64,000 nt of DNA from Chryseobacterium bernardetii (GTDB lineage Bacteria > Bacteroidota > Bacteroidia > Flavobacteriales > Weeksellaceae), in assembly GCF_003815975.1 (NCBI RefSeq), contig NZ_CP033932.1:186001-250000 (forward strand), given 5' to 3'. Positions 24,041-31,791 of this stretch are shown one piece after another. The notes beneath the pieces are model-generated. The model did not search any database. It had not been told where the DNA came from and was given only the letters and a program-made list of their open reading frames with translations. Numbering within the stretch: the stretch's first letter is position 1; every line of letters begins with the position of its first letter. The translations under genes were made by a program, and so were the position numbers.

Positions 24041-24250
24041 TTAGTGCCCAAAATAATCAGAATAGTCTGGTCCGTAACAGTCTGCACTTACATCTACACA
24101 GTTTCTACAGGTAGGAGATAATGCCCAAAAGGCCATACAGCTGTTAGTATATTCGGGGCCGTCTCCATAATTTCCGGAAGTAGGGCAAAAATCGCAGCCA
24201 GATCCTTTACCATTAATATCTTTCAGTCTTGTTCTTGATAATTTTTTCAT
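24041..24250 (-). CDS. Bacteriocin-like small peptide 1 with GG-type leader
   Basis: A 69-residue peptide. The leader MKKLSRTRLKDINGKGSG matches the KLSR-x-x-LK-x-INGG leader type of Chryseobacterium 'bacteriocin-like' peptides, except that GG is replaced by GK-G. The core has cysteines in CDFC, SC, CRNC and DC and ends in YSDYFGH. It is the last of three such genes on the minus strand and starts 15 bp after the stop of the middle one. No peptidase, ABC exporter or maturation enzyme is adjacent. The function is unknown; an exported or modified peptide is inferred. Confidence 0.75.
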   Translation of the reverse strand: MKKLSRTRLKDINGKGSGCDFCPTSGNYGDGPEYTNSCMAFWALSPTCRNCVDVSADCYGPDYSDYFGH

Positions 24251-24265
24251 GTTTTAGTTTATTAG

Positions 24266-24442
24266 TTAAAGTTTAGGGGTATAGCAGGTTCCGCCCGGTT
24301 TTAATGAACATCCCCAGGCCCCGGATCCGCCTTTCATGAAGCATATAAATTGCTCTCCGCCACAAGCTTCAATCTGAAGCTCGGTAAAACCACCATTGAT
24401 ACTTTTCTTTTGATCTCTTGATAATTTTCTAAATGTTTTCAT
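24266..24442 (-). CDS. Bacteriocin-like small peptide 2 with GG leader
   Basis: A 58-residue peptide starting at the ATG at 24442. The leader MKTFRKLSRDQKKSINGG carries a true double glycine at residues 17-18. The core is glycine-rich, with cysteines in EACGGE, FICF, GWGC-like GAWGCS and GTCY. The gene lies between two similar genes and shares the leader pattern, which makes it credible despite its length. Cleavage after GG by a C39-type peptidase would release a core of about 40 residues. This is known for related families and is not shown here. Confidence 0.75.
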   Translation of the reverse strand: MKTFRKLSRDQKKSINGGFTELQIEACGGEQFICFMKGGSGAWGCSLKPGGTCYTPKL

Positions 24443-24509
24443 AGTATTTTAATTTTAAGATGATAAACAAAAAGCACTGTTATATAAAAATGCCATTTTA
24501 TTAAAGAAA

Positions 24510-24704
24510 TTAATACGGTCCAAAACAATCCATACTTACCAATACTCTTTTTTTGCAACACTCTGGCAAAGCTTCAAAATCTCCGCATGATTTTGCTTCA
24601 TTAGGCCCATAAGGACCTTCCGGACAATATTCATAGCAATTACCCACCCCACCATTAATAGATTTTAAATGTTCTCTTTTATTTTTTTCATTGCATTTAA
24701 TCAC
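24510..24704 (-). CDS. Bacteriocin-like small peptide 3, leader with one-base defect or GTG start
   Basis: A 64-residue frame opening with GTG at 24704 and containing KREHLKSINGG before a cysteine-rich core (NCYEYCPEGPYGP, KSCGDF, ECCKK, MDCFGPY). An ATG at 24691 is out of frame by one base. If the A7 run at 24682-24688 had eight bases, the product would start MKKNKREHLKSINGG, exactly the leader type of its two neighbours. So it is either a GTG-started variant, a recent frameshift, programmed slippage or a homopolymer read error. The core shares GPY/GP-rich and C-x3-C features with peptide 1. Confidence 0.65.
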   Translation of the reverse strand: MIKCNEKNKREHLKSINGGVGNCYEYCPEGPYGPNEAKSCGDFEALPECCKKRVLVSMDCFGPY

Positions 24705-24779
24705 ATAAATATAAGATTTATAATTAATTACACAAAATATTTCTCTTGAAAAAGATTTATTAATTTACTGGCTCAAAAA

Positions 24780-24809
24780 TTTGTTATTCCAAAATAATTT
24801 GTACATTTG
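24780..24809 (+). promoter_or_regulatory. Promoter of the threonine operon
   Basis: TTTG at 24780-24783, an 18-bp spacer and TACATTTG at 24802-24809 fit the Bacteroidota -33/-7 consensus. The leader-peptide ATG follows 10 bp later, so the mRNA leader before it would be very short. Confidence 0.75.
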
Positions 24810-24819
24810 TTCTGTTACA

Positions 24820-24921
24820 ATGAATTTTTTAAGAAACATATCTGATATTTCTATCCTGAAATCGCCTATTTCAGGAGTATCTTCCGTTTCTACATTCACA
24901 ACTACAACAACTACCCCATAA
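24820..24921 (+). CDS. thrL: Threonine operon leader peptide
   Basis: A 33-codon ORF. Residues 25-33 read TFTTTTTTP, giving seven Thr codons (ACA, ACT, ACC) in the last nine. Four Ile codons lie earlier, at residues 7, 10, 12 and 17. It starts 10 bp after a consensus promoter and ends about 35 bp before a hairpin that precedes thrA. Such regulatory-amino-acid runs are the hallmark of ribosome-mediated attenuation, as in E. coli thrL. The function is inferred from codon content and position; the peptide itself needs no other role. Confidence 0.8.
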   Translation: MNFLRNISDISILKSPISGVSSVSTFTTTTTTP

Positions 24922-24985
24922 AGGGGTAAATTTTCACATATTATTCCGGTACCCTGTACTCTTTTTTACAAAGAGTAGCTTTTCT
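24912..24985 (+). promoter_or_regulatory. Attenuator hairpins of the threonine operon
   Basis: TACCCC (24912-24917) can pair with GGGGTA (24923-24928). GGGTA can alternatively pair with TACCC (24950-24954). A separate stem TACTCTTT/AAAGAGTA (24957-24964 with 24970-24977) is followed by GCTTTTCTC, a weak T-tract. A ribosome stalled on the Thr codons would cover the first arm and favour the alternative pairing, which crowds the last stem. The switching order is inferred; the last stem is a plausible but not strong terminator. Confidence 0.6.
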
Positions 24986-25014
24986 CACTTTATCTAACCT
25001 TAAATAAACAACAG

Positions 25015-27465
25015 ATGAAAATCTTAAAATTCGGTGGAACATCCGTCGCCAGTCCCCAGAATATCCTACTGGTAGAAAATATTGTTAAAAAAGAATCTTC
25101 TAAAGACAATGTTGTAGTTATTGTATCAGCACTTCATGGAGTAACAGATCTTCTTATTAATGCGGCAGAATATGCTTCCGTTAAAAATGAAGATTATCTG
25201 CAGCTGCTTAAAAACGCAGAAGAAAAGCACTTGAATCTTGTGAAAGAGCTTATTCCCGTTTCAGAGCAGAGTTCTTTGCTGAGTTTTGTAAAAAAACACT
25301 TCAATGATCTGGAAGATCTATGCAACGGAATTTTTGTTCTCGGGGAACTTACTTCAAGAATCAAAGATAAAATTGCCTCATATGGAGAGTTCCTGTCATC
25401 CAGTATTATTGCAGCCAGACTTCAACATCAGGAACTGGACTGTTTATGGATGAATGCTGCAGAACTCATAAGAACCGACAGTAATTTCACCCACGCAAAA
25501 GTAGATTTCAATGTTACTGATGAAAACTTTAGAAATTATTTCAATAAACATCAGAGCCGTATCTTTATAGGTCCCGGGTTTATAGCAAATGACGAAAAAG
25601 GTCGTACTACTACATTAGGACGTGGCGGTTCAGATTACACTGCTGCCATTATTGCCGCTGCCATACAAGCTGAAGAACTTCAGATATGGACTGATGTAAG
25701 TGGAATGATGACTGCCGATCCACGTCTGGCTTCCCATGCAAAGCCTATTTCAGAAATTTCCTTTCACGAGGCTATGGAACTTTCCCATTTTGGAGCAAAA
25801 GTTATTTATCCACCCTCCATTCAACCAGTAATGGTAAAAAATATTAATCTTAAAATTAAAAACACTTTTGATCCTGAAGCACAGGGAACACTGGTTTCCC
25901 ACCACCTGAATGTTTCAGCAAATGAAAAACACCAGGTAGCCGTAGGTATTTCAAATATGGGCAATATTGCCCTCCTTACTTTGGAAGGAAGTGGAATGGT
26001 GGGAATTCCAGGGATTTCAGCAAAACTGTTTCAGTGCCTGAGCCAGGAAAAAATAAATATTATTCTGATTACCCAGGGGTCTTCGGAACATTCCATCACT
26101 ATTGCCATTCACGAAAAGGATATGTCAGCCGCCGAAAATGCAATTAATATTTCTTTCGCAGATGATATTGATTTAAAAAGAGTTGCTCCCGTCAAAATAG
26201 AAACAGGCCTTTCAATTGTAGCGCTGGTAGGGGAAAATATGAAAAGCAGAAGTGGTGTAAGTGCCAAAATGTTTGGATGTCTGGGAAATAACGGAATCAA
26301 TATCAGAACAATTGCACAGGGTTCTTCGGAAAGAAATATCAGTGTGGTTATTGCTGAAAAGGATGCCAGAAAAGCAGTTAATGTTCTCCATGAAGAGTTT
26401 TTTGAATCTGAAATTAAACAGATCCATCTTTATATCTGCGGAACTGGAAATGTAGGGACTAAACTTATCCGGCAGATCTATGACCAGAATCAATACCTGA
26501 GGGAAAACCACTTTATCAATTTAAGAATTGCCGGACTTTCCAACAGCCGAAAGATGATCTTTGCAGACAGAGGTATTTCCGAGCAAGCATACATCAACTG
26601 GAATGAAGACGGTATAGAAGCTTCCGCTCAAAAGTTTGCAGAAGAAATTATTGCCCGTAACCTAAGGAACTCTGTTTTTGTGGATATCACAGCAAGTGCT
26701 GAAATTCCGGAAGTATATGAAAGCCTGTTGAAAAGAAGCATCAATATTGTTGCCTGCAATAAAATTGCCGCTTCATCAGATTTTGAAAAATATACCCTGT
26801 TAAAGAATACTGCCAGAAATCATAACTGCAGTTTTCATTTTGAAACAAATGTAGGAGCCGGACTTCCTGTTATTGGAACAATCAATGATCTTATCAAAAG
26901 CGGTGATAAAATAACTTCCATTGAAGCAGTACTCAGCGGAACATTAAATTTTGTATTCAATACTTATGATGGCAGCAGAACATTTTCTGAAGTAGTAGCA
27001 CAGGCACAAAAAGAAGGCTATACAGAACCGGACCCAAGGTTGGATCTTTCAGGAACTGATGTTGCGAGAAAAATATTAATTCTTGCCAGGGAAGCAGGAT
27101 ATCCGCTTCAGTTTGAAGAAATTGAAAATATAGGCTTTCTGCCTGAAGCCTGTATGGAAGGAAGTGTAGAGCATTTCTATGAAAAGCTTACAGAATATGA
27201 AAGTCATTTTAAATCATTGTTCAGCAATGCAAAGAATGAAGGGAAAATATTGAAGTATACTGCAGAATTTAAAGATGGAAAAGCTAAGGTTGGCTTACAG
27301 CACATTGCTCCGGGCAGCGACCTGTTTCATCTTTATGGAAAAGATAATATTGTCATTTTTAAAACTTTAAGATACTCAGAGCAGCCATTAGTCATAAAAG
27401 GTGCCGGTGCGGGAGCCGAAGTAACTGCCAGTGGGATTTTCGCAGACATCATCCGTTCAGTTTAA
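25015..27465 (+). CDS. thrA: Bifunctional aspartate kinase / homoserine dehydrogenase I
   Basis: An 816-residue fusion. The N-terminal aspartate kinase has KFGGTSVASPQN at residues 4-15 and TLGRGGSDYTAA. Two ACT regulatory domains occupy about 310-460 (IPGISAKLFQCLSQEKINIILITQGSSE and RSGVSAKMFGCLGNNGINIRTIAQGSSE, split by family convention), the likely threonine feedback site. The C-terminal homoserine dehydrogenase starts with the Rossmann motif ICGTGNVGTKL near 474 and has a catalytic region around NVGAGLPVIGT and GTLNFVFNTYDG. It catalyses the first and third steps from aspartate toward threonine and methionine. It is the first structural gene after the attenuator. Confidence 0.97.
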   Translation: MKILKFGGTSVASPQNILLVENIVKKESSKDNVVVIVSALHGVTDLLINAAEYASVKNEDYLQLLKNAEEKHLNLVKELIPVSEQSSLLSFVKKHFNDLEDLCNGIFVLGELTSRIKDKIASYGEFLSSSIIAARLQHQELDCLWMNAAELIRTDSNFTHAKVDFNVTDENFRNYFNKHQSRIFIGPGFIANDEKGRTTTLGRGGSDYTAAIIAAAIQAEELQIWTDVSGMMTADPRLASHAKPISEISFHEAMELSHFGAKVIYPPSIQPVMVKNINLKIKNTFDPEAQGTLVSHHLNVSANEKHQVAVGISNMGNIALLTLEGSGMVGIPGISAKLFQCLSQEKINIILITQGSSEHSITIAIHEKDMSAAENAINISFADDIDLKRVAPVKIETGLSIVALVGENMKSRSGVSAKMFGCLGNNGINIRTIAQGSSERNISVVIAEKDARKAVNVLHEEFFESEIKQIHLYICGTGNVGTKLIRQIYDQNQYLRENHFINLRIAGLSNSRKMIFADRGISEQAYINWNEDGIEASAQKFAEEIIARNLRNSVFVDITASAEIPEVYESLLKRSINIVACNKIAASSDFEKYTLLKNTARNHNCSFHFETNVGAGLPVIGTINDLIKSGDKITSIEAVLSGTLNFVFNTYDGSRTFSEVVAQAQKEGYTEPDPRLDLSGTDVARKILILAREAGYPLQFEEIENIGFLPEACMEGSVEHFYEKLTEYESHFKSLFSNAKNEGKILKYTAEFKDGKAKVGLQHIAPGSDLFHLYGKDNIVIFKTLRYSEQPLVIKGAGAGAEVTASGIFADIIRSV

Positions 27466-27476
27466 AAACAAAAAAT

Positions 27477-28412
27477 ATGAAAAATGTAAAATTAAAAATT
27501 CCGGCTACTGTTGCCAACCTTGTATGTGGATTCGATATTCTGGGAATGGCCGTTAATGAACCTTATGATGAAATGGAAATCCGTTTACTGGAAACTCCTG
27601 AAATAATTATCAAACACAAAGATTCTTTTGGGCTTCCTGAAGAACCTGCTAAAAATGTAGCGGGAATGGTTCTTTTAAAAATTCAGGAACATTATCATCT
27701 AAAAAATGGTTTTGAGGTCATTATTCATAAACACATAAAACCTGGAAGCGGACTTGGCTCCAGCGCGGCTAGCGCCGCCGGAGCCGCCATGGGGGCCAAT
27801 ATTGTACTGGGAAATATCATGTCAAAGGATGAAATGGTTCATTTTGCCATGTTCGGGGAAGAGCTTGCTTCAGGAGTTCGCCACGCAGACAATATTGCAC
27901 CATGCATTTATGGAGGGATTACTTTGGTAAAATCTACAAATCCCATTGATATTATCCCATTGAATGCTCCTGATTTATTTGTTGCAGCAGTTCATCCCCA
28001 GGTTGAAGTTAAAACTTCAGATTCAAGACAGATTTTAAAGAAAAACATTACGTTGAAAAGTGCTGTTGAACAATGGGGGAATATTGCCGGATTGGTTGCC
28101 GGTATCCAGAAAAATGACTTTGCATTAATTGGCAGAAGCCTCAATGATGTCATTATAGAACCTGTAAGAAGTATTTTAATCCCAAGATTTGATGAAATTA
28201 AATCCAAAAGCCTTCAGCTTGGAGCTTTGGGCGGAGGAATTTCAGGATCAGGACCATCTATTTTCATGCTGACAGAAAAAAAAGAAACTGCAGAAAAGGT
28301 CGCCGGCCTCATGAAATCAATGTATAACGAAATCAATATAGACAACTTCGTCTATGTCTCCAAAATAAACCCGGCAGGAATTGAAATTATTGAAGAAACA
28401 GAATTAGATTAG
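27477..28412 (+). CDS. thrB: Homoserine kinase
   Basis: A 311-residue GHMP-family kinase that phosphorylates homoserine. The ATP motif PGSGLGSSAASAAG lies near residues 88-101 and the C-terminal GGGISGSGPSIFML completes the family pattern. It starts 11 bp after thrA and ends 5 bp before thrC, so the three genes form one operon under the Thr leader. Confidence 0.97.
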   Translation: MKNVKLKIPATVANLVCGFDILGMAVNEPYDEMEIRLLETPEIIIKHKDSFGLPEEPAKNVAGMVLLKIQEHYHLKNGFEVIIHKHIKPGSGLGSSAASAAGAAMGANIVLGNIMSKDEMVHFAMFGEELASGVRHADNIAPCIYGGITLVKSTNPIDIIPLNAPDLFVAAVHPQVEVKTSDSRQILKKNITLKSAVEQWGNIAGLVAGIQKNDFALIGRSLNDVIIEPVRSILIPRFDEIKSKSLQLGALGGGISGSGPSIFMLTEKKETAEKVAGLMKSMYNEINIDNFVYVSKINPAGIEIIEETELD

Positions 28413-28417
28413 AACAG

Positions 28418-29722
28418 ATGAAATATTATAACTTAAAACATAGTGAAGAAAAAGTAGATTTCAGAACTGCAGCCATAAAAGGACAGGGAAAAGACAAAGG
28501 ATTATTCTTTCCTGAAAATCTTCCGTTATTCAATGAAGAATTTATTCAAAACCTTCACCAATATTCTGATGAAGAAATTGCTTATCAATGTATGAAAGAT
28601 TTTGTGGGAGATGAAATTCCTTCGGAAGTTCTGAGAAAGATTGTTGCTGAAACCATCAGCTTTGAAATTCCTTTGATAAAGATTAATGATGAGATCTCTG
28701 TGCTGGAGCTTTTCCACGGCCCTACCCTTGCATTCAAAGATATTGGTGCTGGATTTATGAGCAGATGCCTGTCTTATTTTTTAGAAAATCAGCAGAAAAA
28801 AGTGACTGTTCTGGTAGCTACTTCCGGAGATACCGGCGGAGCAGTTGCGCACGGATTTTATAATCTTCCGGGAATTGATGTTGTTATTCTCTACCCTAAA
28901 AACAGGGTAAGCCCCGTTCAGGAAAAGCAGCTTACCGCACTCGGGAAAAATATTTATGCACTGGAAGTCAATGGCAGCTTCGATGATTGTCAAAGCCTCG
29001 TAAAACAAGCTTTTTCCAATGAAGAAATCAACAACACATTGTTTCTTACCTCGGCTAATTCAATCAATATTGCCAGATGGCTTCCACAACAGATCTATTA
29101 CTTACTGGCATTAAAACAGTGGCAGCAAAGAGAAAATAAGATTCCTGTCATCTGTGTTCCAAGTGGAAATTTCGGAAATATCTGTGCCGGAATTTTAGCC
29201 CATCTTCGTGGTCTTCCTGCAGAACATTTCATTGCAGCGTGTAATGCGAATGACGTAATTCCTGAATACCTGAAAACCCGGGCTTTTAACCCTAAAGATG
29301 CTGTACCTACCCTATCCAATGCCATGGATGTGGGAGATCCCAGCAATTTTGTCAGAATCCTTGAACTTTTCAATAATGAATTTGATTCTTTGAAGAATAC
29401 AATATCAGGTTATTCAACAGATGATCAAGAAACGATGCACACCATTACAAAAGTGTACAATAAATATCATTATATTCTGGATCCTCACAGTGCCGTAGCT
29501 TTTACTTCTCTTGAACAATATCTTAAAGAAAATCCGGGTAAAAAAGGGTTCATTCTGGGAACGGCACATCCAGTGAAGTTCCCTGATGCTGTGGAAAAAG
29601 CCATCAAAACAAAAATTGAAATTCCACAATCTCTGGAAGCCTTGATGAAAAAGGAGAAAAAAACTATAGAAATTAATTCAGATTTTGAAGAATTAAAGCG
29701 ATTTTTGCTTAATAAAAATTAA
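28418..29722 (+). CDS. thrC: Threonine synthase
   Basis: A 434-residue PLP enzyme that converts phosphohomoserine to threonine. The PLP lysine lies in HGPTLAFKDIGAGFM near residue 107. The phosphate-binding loop ATSGDTGGAVAHG and the later CVPSGNFGNICAG are intact. Length fits the short bacterial class. It overlaps nothing, and its stop lies 3 bp before folB, implying read-through. Confidence 0.97.
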   Translation: MKYYNLKHSEEKVDFRTAAIKGQGKDKGLFFPENLPLFNEEFIQNLHQYSDEEIAYQCMKDFVGDEIPSEVLRKIVAETISFEIPLIKINDEISVLELFHGPTLAFKDIGAGFMSRCLSYFLENQQKKVTVLVATSGDTGGAVAHGFYNLPGIDVVILYPKNRVSPVQEKQLTALGKNIYALEVNGSFDDCQSLVKQAFSNEEINNTLFLTSANSINIARWLPQQIYYLLALKQWQQRENKIPVICVPSGNFGNICAGILAHLRGLPAEHFIAACNANDVIPEYLKTRAFNPKDAVPTLSNAMDVGDPSNFVRILELFNNEFDSLKNTISGYSTDDQETMHTITKVYNKYHYILDPHSAVAFTSLEQYLKENPGKKGFILGTAHPVKFPDAVEKAIKTKIEIPQSLEALMKKEKKTIEINSDFEELKRFLLNKN

Positions 29723-29725
29723 GCA

Positions 29726-30094
29726 ATGAGTAAGATATATCTTGAAGATGTAAAAATATATGCCTACCATGGAGTTTTACCCGAGGAAAATATTATTGGT
29801 ACCTATTATATTTTAAATGCAGAACTTCATACCGATTTGTGGAAAGCAGCAGAATCTGATGATCTGAATGATACCATAAGCTATGCAGATATCAATGATA
29901 TTATCCATCAGGAGATGAAGATCAAATCTAAGCTTCTGGAACACGTTGCCGGGAGAATTATTTCAAAAATACATGACAGCTTTCCGCAAATCGACTATAT
30001 CAGGCTTAAGCTTACCAAAACAGCCCCACCTATGCAGGGTGAAATGAAAGGAGCAAGCGTTGAACTGGAAAAAAGCTTTAAGCCGGAGAATTAA
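29726..30094 (+). CDS. folB: Dihydroneopterin aldolase
   Basis: A 122-residue folate enzyme (dihydroneopterin to 6-hydroxymethyl-dihydropterin and glycolaldehyde). The motifs IYAYHGVLPEEN (residues 11-22), DTISYADI and LLEHVAGRI, plus the Lys in RLKLTKTAPP, are typical. It sits 3 bp after thrC, so it is probably co-transcribed with the threonine genes, an unrelated pathway joined by position. Confidence 0.93.
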   Translation: MSKIYLEDVKIYAYHGVLPEENIIGTYYILNAELHTDLWKAAESDDLNDTISYADINDIIHQEMKIKSKLLEHVAGRIISKIHDSFPQIDYIRLKLTKTAPPMQGEMKGASVELEKSFKPEN

Positions 30095-31720: not shown

Positions 31721-31791
31721 GGTACTTTGGCCGAGCGGCTAGGCAGTGGTCTGCAACACCATCTACAGCGGTTCGAATCCGCTAGGTACCT
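31721..31791 (+). tRNA. tRNA-Cys (anticodon GCA)
   Basis: A 71-nt cloverleaf. The acceptor stem pairs GGTACTT with AGGTACC with one G-T pair. The D arm contains GCCGAGCGGCTAGGC. The anticodon arm GTGGTCTGCAACACCAT presents GCA. The T arm GCGGTTCGAATCCGC is perfect. The discriminator base is T, as is usual for tRNA-Cys, and the CCA end is not encoded. Confidence 0.97.

Follow-up and report, generated by a model that had tools for sequence, protein, structure and literature searches.

In the window, by which we mean the whole stretch of 64,000 nucleotides analysed here (G000:C1:186001-250000), a short threonine-rich ORF stands directly before the genes thrA, thrB, thrC and folB (Table 1). An earlier sequence-only reading of this DNA had named the same four genes, and each scores above the cut-off of its NCBIfam models. 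The genome is Chryseobacterium-like, and the closest ThrA found in a protein search of named genomes is that of C. jejuense (93% identical).

The sequence-only reading had also described a promoter 10 bp before the leader ATG and a 33-codon ORF with seven Thr codons among its last nine and four Ile codons earlier, and we found both in place. The promoter is of the Bacteroidota type, in which TAnnTTTG is the reported sigma-A -7 consensus of Flavobacterium psychrophilum (PMC9723704). From the -7 box to the leader ATG the distance is 10 nt in the window; over 65 loci that include the window it ranges from 8 to 12 nt (10-11 nt in 59 of them), so the very short mRNA 5' end predicted from this spacing is part of the conserved leader design.

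The segment 24815-25014 folds better than expected from its composition, as none of 200 dinucleotide shuffles folded as well (z -3.5). Its downstream part, 24919-25014, which holds the proposed GGGTA/TACCC stem and the hairpin H2, is no more stable than its shuffles, 50 of 200 of which fold as well (z -0.56). NCBIfam models gave no match to the leader peptide. At threshold, Rfam matches the window once, at a tRNA (31721-31791), with no leader family, riboswitch or T-box, and all four Rfam matches over 24780-25020 fall below their gathering scores.

Table 1. Features of the thr locus, in positions of the window.
Feature	Sequence	Coordinates	Strand	Basis or remark
Promoter, Bacteroidota type	TTTG-N18-TACATTTG	24780..24809	+	sequence; -7 box type as in F. 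psychrophilum
Leader peptide ORF, 33 codons	MNFLRNISDISILKSPISGVSSVSTFTTTTTTP	24820..24921	+	Thr at codons 25 and 27-32, then Pro; TAA stop 24919-24921
5' copy of the ACAUAU element	AACATATC	24835..24842	+	codons 6-8; nucleotide-level conservation
P0 hairpin, inside the leader ORF	TCCTGAAAT/ATTTCAGGA	24854..24876	+	folding
P1 hairpin	TACCCC-ATAAA-GGGGTA	24912..24928 (arms 24912-24917/24923-24928)	+	leader stop 24919-24921 in the loop
3' copy of the ACAUAU element	ATTTTCACATATTAT	24930..24944	+	near-invariant, directly after P1; alignment
H2 hairpin	TACTCTTT-TTTAC-AAAGAGTA	24957..24977 (arms 24957-24964/24970-24977)	+	covariation; no U-tract
thrA, bifunctional aspartate kinase/homoserine dehydrogenase I		25015..27465	+	NF006959, 983.8 bits, cut-off 726
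thrB, homoserine kinase		27477..28412	+	TIGR00191 and NF002288, above cut-off
thrC, threonine synthase		28418..29722	+	TIGR00260, above cut-off
folB, dihydroneopterin aldolase		29726..30094	+	TIGR00525, above cut-off

Conservation of the leader ORF and its stop-codon hairpin

We compared 68 related thrA loci, comprising 66 from the protein search of named genomes (nearly all Chryseobacterium), the window and locus L106. These loci are phylogenetically dependent, and counts over them are not counts of independent events. A Thr-rich leader ORF is present in 67 of the 68, and 66 also carry the P1 hairpin around the leader stop codon. The exceptions are L005, which keeps the leader but has its stem shortened to CCCC/GGGG, and L045, which lies at a contig edge. 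In 197 genomes sampled at family level, every one of the 35 from the same genus that have ThrA (E <= 1e-100) shows a covariance-model match directly upstream of the gene (E <= 8.2e-5), and the best leader-element match among the 15 listed same-genus genomes without ThrA has an E value of 0.37. Inspection of 18 places with weaker model matches revealed eight intact leaders before thrA (L103-L109, L114), one degenerate leader (L112) and nine chance matches (L110, L111, L113, L115-L120).

Because the leader ORF and P1 are kept in nearly all of these loci, ribosome-mediated control that depends on threonine, and probably on isoleucine, is well supported by comparison as the predicted function of the Thr-codon leader, and slow translation of the Thr codons would very likely be its sensing half. 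The sequence-only reading had raised isoleucine sensing on account of the four Ile codons early in the ORF. The idea is plausible, and isoleucine is probably sensed as well as threonine, although the better evidence comes from Ile codons that lie within the Thr run of several relatives (e.g., L012, L069, L104 and L107).

Similar leaders occur outside the genus. With a second covariance model (R2), 77 of 395 genomes of the order were matched at E <= 0.05: 36 from the window's own family (f1), 30 from a second Flavobacteriales family (f3, genera g35, g54 and g116) and 11 from other families. We inspected seven of these 11 together with three second matches in f3 genomes, and all ten were due to chance. 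By script, 27 of the 30 f3 genomes have a Thr-rich leader with P1 (all but L161, L176 and L184); at L161 (G352) an unrelated ORF separates the thr leader element from a thrA-like start 720 nt further downstream. The other genera of f1 are more varied, their 40 thrA loci comprising six P1-type leaders by script (and L122 by eye), 19 terminator-type leaders and 14 loci at which no leader was found, L112 among them. A class-level sample of 295 genomes contained 67 with ThrA at E <= 1e-150, and we took the upstream regions of 40. By script, nineteen of the 40 contain Thr-rich leaders, of which 12, from six families beyond f1 and f3, have a hairpin with at least three G-C pairs at the leader stop. 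The other seven have no stop hairpin, and four of these have terminators.

Two hairpins recur within or at the end of the leader ORF. P0 was missed by the sequence-only reading, as were the stop codon in the P1 loop, the ATTTTCACATATTAT segment and the absence of a U-tract after H2. Compared with 60 dinucleotide shuffles per leader, which do not preserve the peptide, the P0 region has a mean folding z of -2.5 in 61 distinct related leaders, -2.3 in six leaders of other f1 genera, -2.0 in 26 f3 leaders and -1.5 in nine class-level leaders, and the letters of its stem differ from taxon to taxon. For P1, a stop-spanning hairpin with at least four G-C pairs is found in 109 of 140 thr leaders versus none of 623 stop codons of long ORFs in Chryseobacterium loci, many of which are orthologous to each other. 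When only three or more G-C pairs are required, 14 of these 623 ordinary stops are also spanned. Two leaders for which the script had taken a wrong ORF (L137 and L138) were assigned by hand to the non-hairpin group, which lowers the number of hairpin leaders from 113 to 111 and that of leaders with at least four G-C pairs from 111 to 109. Between families the P1 stem is compensated (ACCCC/GGGGT, CAACCC/GGGTTG, ACGGG/CCCGT and CCCGG/CCGGG), and it is from this comparison that the covariation comes, as P1 is nearly constant within f1 and f3 (except in L005, L163 and L175).

At locus L112 (G063) the leader ORF and the P1 5' arm are gone, but H2 and a ThrA match without internal stop remain; this natural deletion suggests that the leader side can be lost while the gene stays. 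On the minus strand, P1 and the complement of the Thr codons (24929-24911) make up the only terminator-like site in 24400-25400 (0.3 expected), which is probably a by-product of the Thr codons.

Terminator scores and two designs of thr leader

In all 140 leaders, we scored each hairpin that lies after the leader stop and before thrA with the published d-score for E. coli terminators. This energy-weighted score supersedes an earlier, simple terminator scan, which flagged four stop-codon-hairpin leaders (L163, L191, L192 and L232) and missed many real terminators because their stems ran into the T-tract. A score above 0 was obtained for one of the 111 stop-codon-hairpin leaders (L175, +1.3); the median is -38.6, and the best score in the window's thr leader is -46.2. 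Among the 29 other thr leaders, 23 score between +16.6 and +57. The remaining six (L005, L122, L184, L207, L211 and L215) score below 0, and five of them look like stop-codon-hairpin leaders by eye, L207 being ambiguous. The thr leaders examined fall almost cleanly into two designs, with either a stop-codon hairpin or a U-tract terminator. The "canonical" labels used in the partner test, a terminator scoring of 38 chosen leaders, the element counts and the C-minus-G comparison were set by eye, and the d-score split of all 140 is independent of them except for L137 and L138. We are confident that the thr leader of the window has no intrinsic terminator.

Ordinary terminators are in use in this genome. 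In the window, 11 of 33 gene ends examined have a best hairpin followed by 6-7 T in 8. The hisG leader of the same genome (MKPIFLALHHYHHHLC, G000:C1:3831399, L246) is His-rich and has a U-tract terminator (d +17.1), and 11 of 12 hisG loci, this one included, score above 0 (L242-L253, with L244 the exception). A second, monofunctional aspartokinase (G000:C1:3449035, L003) is preceded by an ORF for a Lys-rich leader, MILSNLKKGKKQYLRPAS, with what looks by eye like a terminator, GAGCTTGTC-ATCAC-GACAAGCTC-T8, for which GTCGTGA/TCACGAC is the likely antiterminator; the L003 leader is a candidate lysine attenuator. Since terminators are present both at hisG and, by eye, at this aspartokinase, the lack of a U-tract is a trait of the thr leader and not of the organism. 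Upstream of ilvD in Chryseobacterium relatives, a terminator was found in none of seven scored loci (L257-L263; L255, L264 and L265 are outside this count).

These scores bear on the possibility that P1 and its A/U-rich tail are themselves a weak, non-standard intrinsic terminator. A ribosome on the Thr codons would then block P1, and neither Rho nor a competing stem would be needed. Of the 22 stop-codon-hairpin leaders listed, 17 have P1, whole or in part, as their best-scoring hairpin. The UUUU in the conserved element is placed where the RNA-DNA hybrid is expected, and the two leaders L175, in which P1 is followed by TTTTTC, and L108 reach +1.3 and -14.2, respectively. However, 110 of the 111 scores are below 0, the UUUU of the window begins 2-3 nt past the stem, and the same genome makes use of ordinary terminators, with 6-7 T in 8 at the window gene ends counted above. 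We therefore regard a weak terminator as rather unlikely.

The ACAUAU element and pairing downstream of P1

The ACAUAU element occurs twice in the leader, early in the ORF and directly after P1. Even counting third codon positions, 60 of 65 loci have AACATATCT or AACATATCA as the 5' copy. Among stop-codon-hairpin leaders, a looser pattern applied to the first 45 nt finds it in 64 of 66 of the Chryseobacterium type and 23 of 27 from f3, where letter shuffles predict about 8 and 3. It is present in none of the six leaders of other f1 genera, two of the 12 class-level leaders and none of the 19 terminator-type f1 leaders. For the 3' copy, we counted CATAT-type cores within 24 nt after P1 and found them in 65 of 66 Chryseobacterium-type, 27 of 27 f3, four of six other f1 and four of 12 class-level leaders, against expectations of about 5.2, 2.6, 0.6 and 0.6, respectively. 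The f3 leaders were picked by a model that contains the element, and their counts are not independent of it. Most f3 leaders have the form ATTTT(C/T)ACATATAATCC at this place, and the element is conserved after P1 in both Flavobacteriales families studied (f1 and f3).

An RNA-binding factor, or the polymerase itself, might read the repeated element and set the outcome instead of Rho. Both copies are near-invariant at the nucleotide level, even at third codon positions, and the 5' copy is missing from every terminator-type f1 leader, as would fit such a reader. The element is weaker beyond the genus and f3, however, with the 3' copy in 4/12 and the 5' copy in 2/12 class-level leaders and the 5' copy in 0/6 leaders of other f1 genera, and we consider this explanation unlikely.

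We rejected the possibility that the element is shared with other operons, as the pattern of P1 plus element, with up to three mismatches, is found only at thrA. The sequence TTTTCACATATNAT occurs at two places in the genome, the same number as its reversed control, and the second is at G000:C1:1979171. A boxA-like reading of TGCTCTTTA, found in some H2 arms, was given up since the f3 leaders do not have this sequence. Many Flavobacterium-type leaders (f3, L165-L193) carry a downstream GGAUACAUA, a candidate for pairing either with the H2 base or with AUAUAAUCC of the element.

H2 shows compensatory change in six of its eight pairs over 29 sequences, and none of 500 shuffles matches its covariation score in an alignment that was fitted to the model. 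In a MAFFT alignment of 41 close relatives, three pairs of P1 and H2 together have changed on both sides, which 3 of 500 shuffles also reach. The sequence-only reading was thus right to place a hairpin here, but H2 is not a terminator: it has no U-tract, and the best score in the window is -46. The same reading had proposed two mutually exclusive stems. TACCCC/GGGGTA, our P1, is conserved, together with the leader and its Thr run, in relatives. The second stem, GGGTA/TACCC, with its TACCC at 24950-24954, fared otherwise: 47.7% of cells are paired over 41 sequences in a part of the alignment that is shaky, as a one-column slide gives 77.9%. An alignment-free test for partners of the P1 3' arm in the downstream stretch revealed no enrichment over shuffles (window z -1.3; mean z -0.16 in 66 loci, +0.43 in six leaders of other f1 genera, -0.44 in 27 f3 leaders and +0.24 in 12 class-level leaders). 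The proposed likeness to the layout of E. coli thrL is not supported, since the antiterminator pair is not conserved and there is no U-tract terminator.

Attenuation in the manner of E. coli could still operate through another pair, in which a stalled ribosome lets GGGGUA, the 3' arm of P1, pair with UACUCU in the 5' arm of H2, and H2 otherwise terminates transcription. This pair is formed in 98.0% of cells over the 41 sequences, above every slid version; H2 is conserved with compensation, and sister genera have terminator-type attenuators. Yet GGGGUA/UACUCU shows neither covariation, with no pair changed on both sides and all shuffles reaching its score, nor enrichment. The 5' arm of H2 is different in L105, L108 and f3, and no U-tract follows H2 (A-rich tails stand there in L106, L107 and L114, and f3 is likewise without one), which makes this model quite improbable.

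Translational attenuation, which would have AUUUUCACAU sequester the start of thrA (AUGAAA(A/G)U) until a ribosome stalls and the leader refolds, is very improbable. The pairing is attractive in the folds of several relatives, and over 75 loci the mean energy of the duplex between the linker and its own thrA start is -7.65, compared with -7.02 for species-swapped starts (0/300 as low), -4.6 for shuffled linkers and an average of -4.84 for the starts of other genes at the same loci, 115 of 599 of which are at least as strong. In the window, however, the duplex is ordinary (-4.5 versus an other-gene mean of -4.45, with 19 of 42 at least as strong), and it is weak in L107, L109 and L121. The flanking pair is complementary in 36 of 65 loci versus 32.4 expected (L017 and L045 were dropped for pattern mismatch), and L162 and L164 start with ATGAATGT and keep ACAUAUAAUCCC without a complement. 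Sequestration of the start codon by a conserved leader segment was rejected, being ordinary in the window and lost in L162 and L164.

A proposed mechanism and its relation to known leaders

We propose that this leader is a ribosome-mediated thr attenuator with one stop-codon hairpin instead of competing hairpins, and we put the probability of the whole chain of events, release by Rho included, at about 0.4. Comparison of sequences supports its components: the leader ORF, P0, P1, the ACAUAU element after P1, H2 without a U-tract, the lack of a scoring terminator and the lack of an enriched partner for the P1 3' arm. Threonine, and probably isoleucine, would be sensed as the ribosome translates the run of Thr codons slowly. 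RNA polymerase may pause at P0, and at P1 together with the A/U-rich ACAUAU segment. When a hairpin such as P1 is just out of the exit channel, the polymerase would sit over the adjacent A/U-rich stretch with its ACAUAU element, and a pause or release site there is therefore a natural guess. With Thr-tRNA scarce, a ribosome slowed on the Thr run would cover the C-rich, G-poor segment 24859-24918, and often the 5' side of P1, and transcription would continue into thrA. With threonine plentiful, the ribosome would finish the ORF and leave at the stop codon in P1, exposing C-rich RNA, and Rho would then release the polymerase held after P1.

Rho is the first candidate for this last step because the leader has a stretch with more C than G and rho is present in the genome (606.8 bits, cut-off 509.45). 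C-minus-G peaks at 14 in the 60 nt from 24859 to 24918, a value reached by 0.41% of 60-nt stretches on both strands of the window, although Thr codons themselves impose C. The mean is 12.8 in the 111 stop-codon-hairpin leaders versus 6.4 in 21 terminator-type leaders. Because Thr codons make the run rich in C and base composition varies between taxa, the excess of C over G is at most suggestive as a sign of Rho loading. The footprint of a ribosome extends about 12 nt beyond the codon that it reads (PMC4833913), so one stalled at the first Thr codons (25 and 27) would fall short of P1's 5' arm. Release by Rho also leaves the conservation of the ACAUAU element, its duplication and the retention of H2 without an explanation.

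More broadly, and tentatively, the distribution of these leaders may reflect a separate, old design of thr attenuator in the Bacteroidia. In this design the stop-codon hairpin and the twice-repeated ACAUAU would replace antiterminator and terminator, polymerase would be released by Rho or by a factor that reads the element, and the arrangement would alternate in evolution with terminator attenuators at the same gene.

The E. coli thrL leader, for which Rfam has a Thr leader family, likewise has a short ORF with Thr and Ile codons directly before thrABC and senses by ribosome stalling, as the Chryseobacterium leader is predicted to do. In contrast, the Chryseobacterium leader has no Rfam match at threshold, conserved antiterminator or U-tract terminator, and its stop codon lies inside a hairpin. 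The terminator-type leaders of sister genera (L134, L136 and L139, with the peptide pattern MNF..TTTTT..RK.CL) serve the same gene by the same Thr-rich logic, but CAGAAAGG at the leader end can pair by eye with CCTTTCTG of a strong terminator followed by at least five T, and the 5' ACAUAU copy is absent (0/19). Leader peptides that control Rho include TnaC of E. coli and similar systems, which also lack an intrinsic terminator and in which, as proposed here, the position of the ribosome near the leader stop would decide the access of Rho. There the ribosome is arrested by a ligand, whereas for the thr leader we propose codon starvation and a putative dependence on Rho.

In F. psychrophilum, clues to leader-peptide attenuation have been described at amino acid operons, with pheA and hisG among the conserved 5' elements; the main text of that report does not contain the word threonine (PMC9723704). 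Leader-peptide-like short ORFs are reported in 5' UTRs of B. thetaiotaomicron (PMC7366714). A tylosin resistance system of B. subtilis is described as combining a NusG-dependent polymerase pause with ribosome stalling on a leader peptide (PMC6851288), similar to the pause that we infer at the thr element, but it senses an antibiotic. In Actinobacteria, amino acid leader peptides without obvious terminators (cys) and a LEU element that pairs with the Shine-Dalgarno box are reported (PMC1262725); these share with the thr leader the missing components of a classical attenuator, whereas no pairing of the LEU kind is supported for the thr leader. As of 2010, leader peptide systems were, to the knowledge of the authors of one report, unshown outside Proteobacteria and Actinobacteria (ermC apart) before their own find in bacilli (PMC2965389). 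Broad attenuator searches, such as that of Naville and Gautheret in 2010, looked for terminators (PMC2965389), and a terminator-less class would therefore be missed. Among the matches listed from the open-access literature on threonine and amino acid attenuation, no title or beginning of an abstract concerns a thr leader in Bacteroidota, which counts as weak evidence.

Both designs occur at the same gene within one bacterial class, and a single genome holds both at different operons. This makes possible a direct test of how a leader peptide could control transcription with no intrinsic terminator; regulation of this kind is little studied in the phylum. Just upstream of the thr leader, on the minus strand at 24041-24704, lie three small ORFs of 69, 58 and 64 aa. 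Their starts are leader-like and of the GG type (DINGKG, SINGG), their ends are rich in Cys and Gly, and together they resemble a cluster for small bacteriocin-like peptides.
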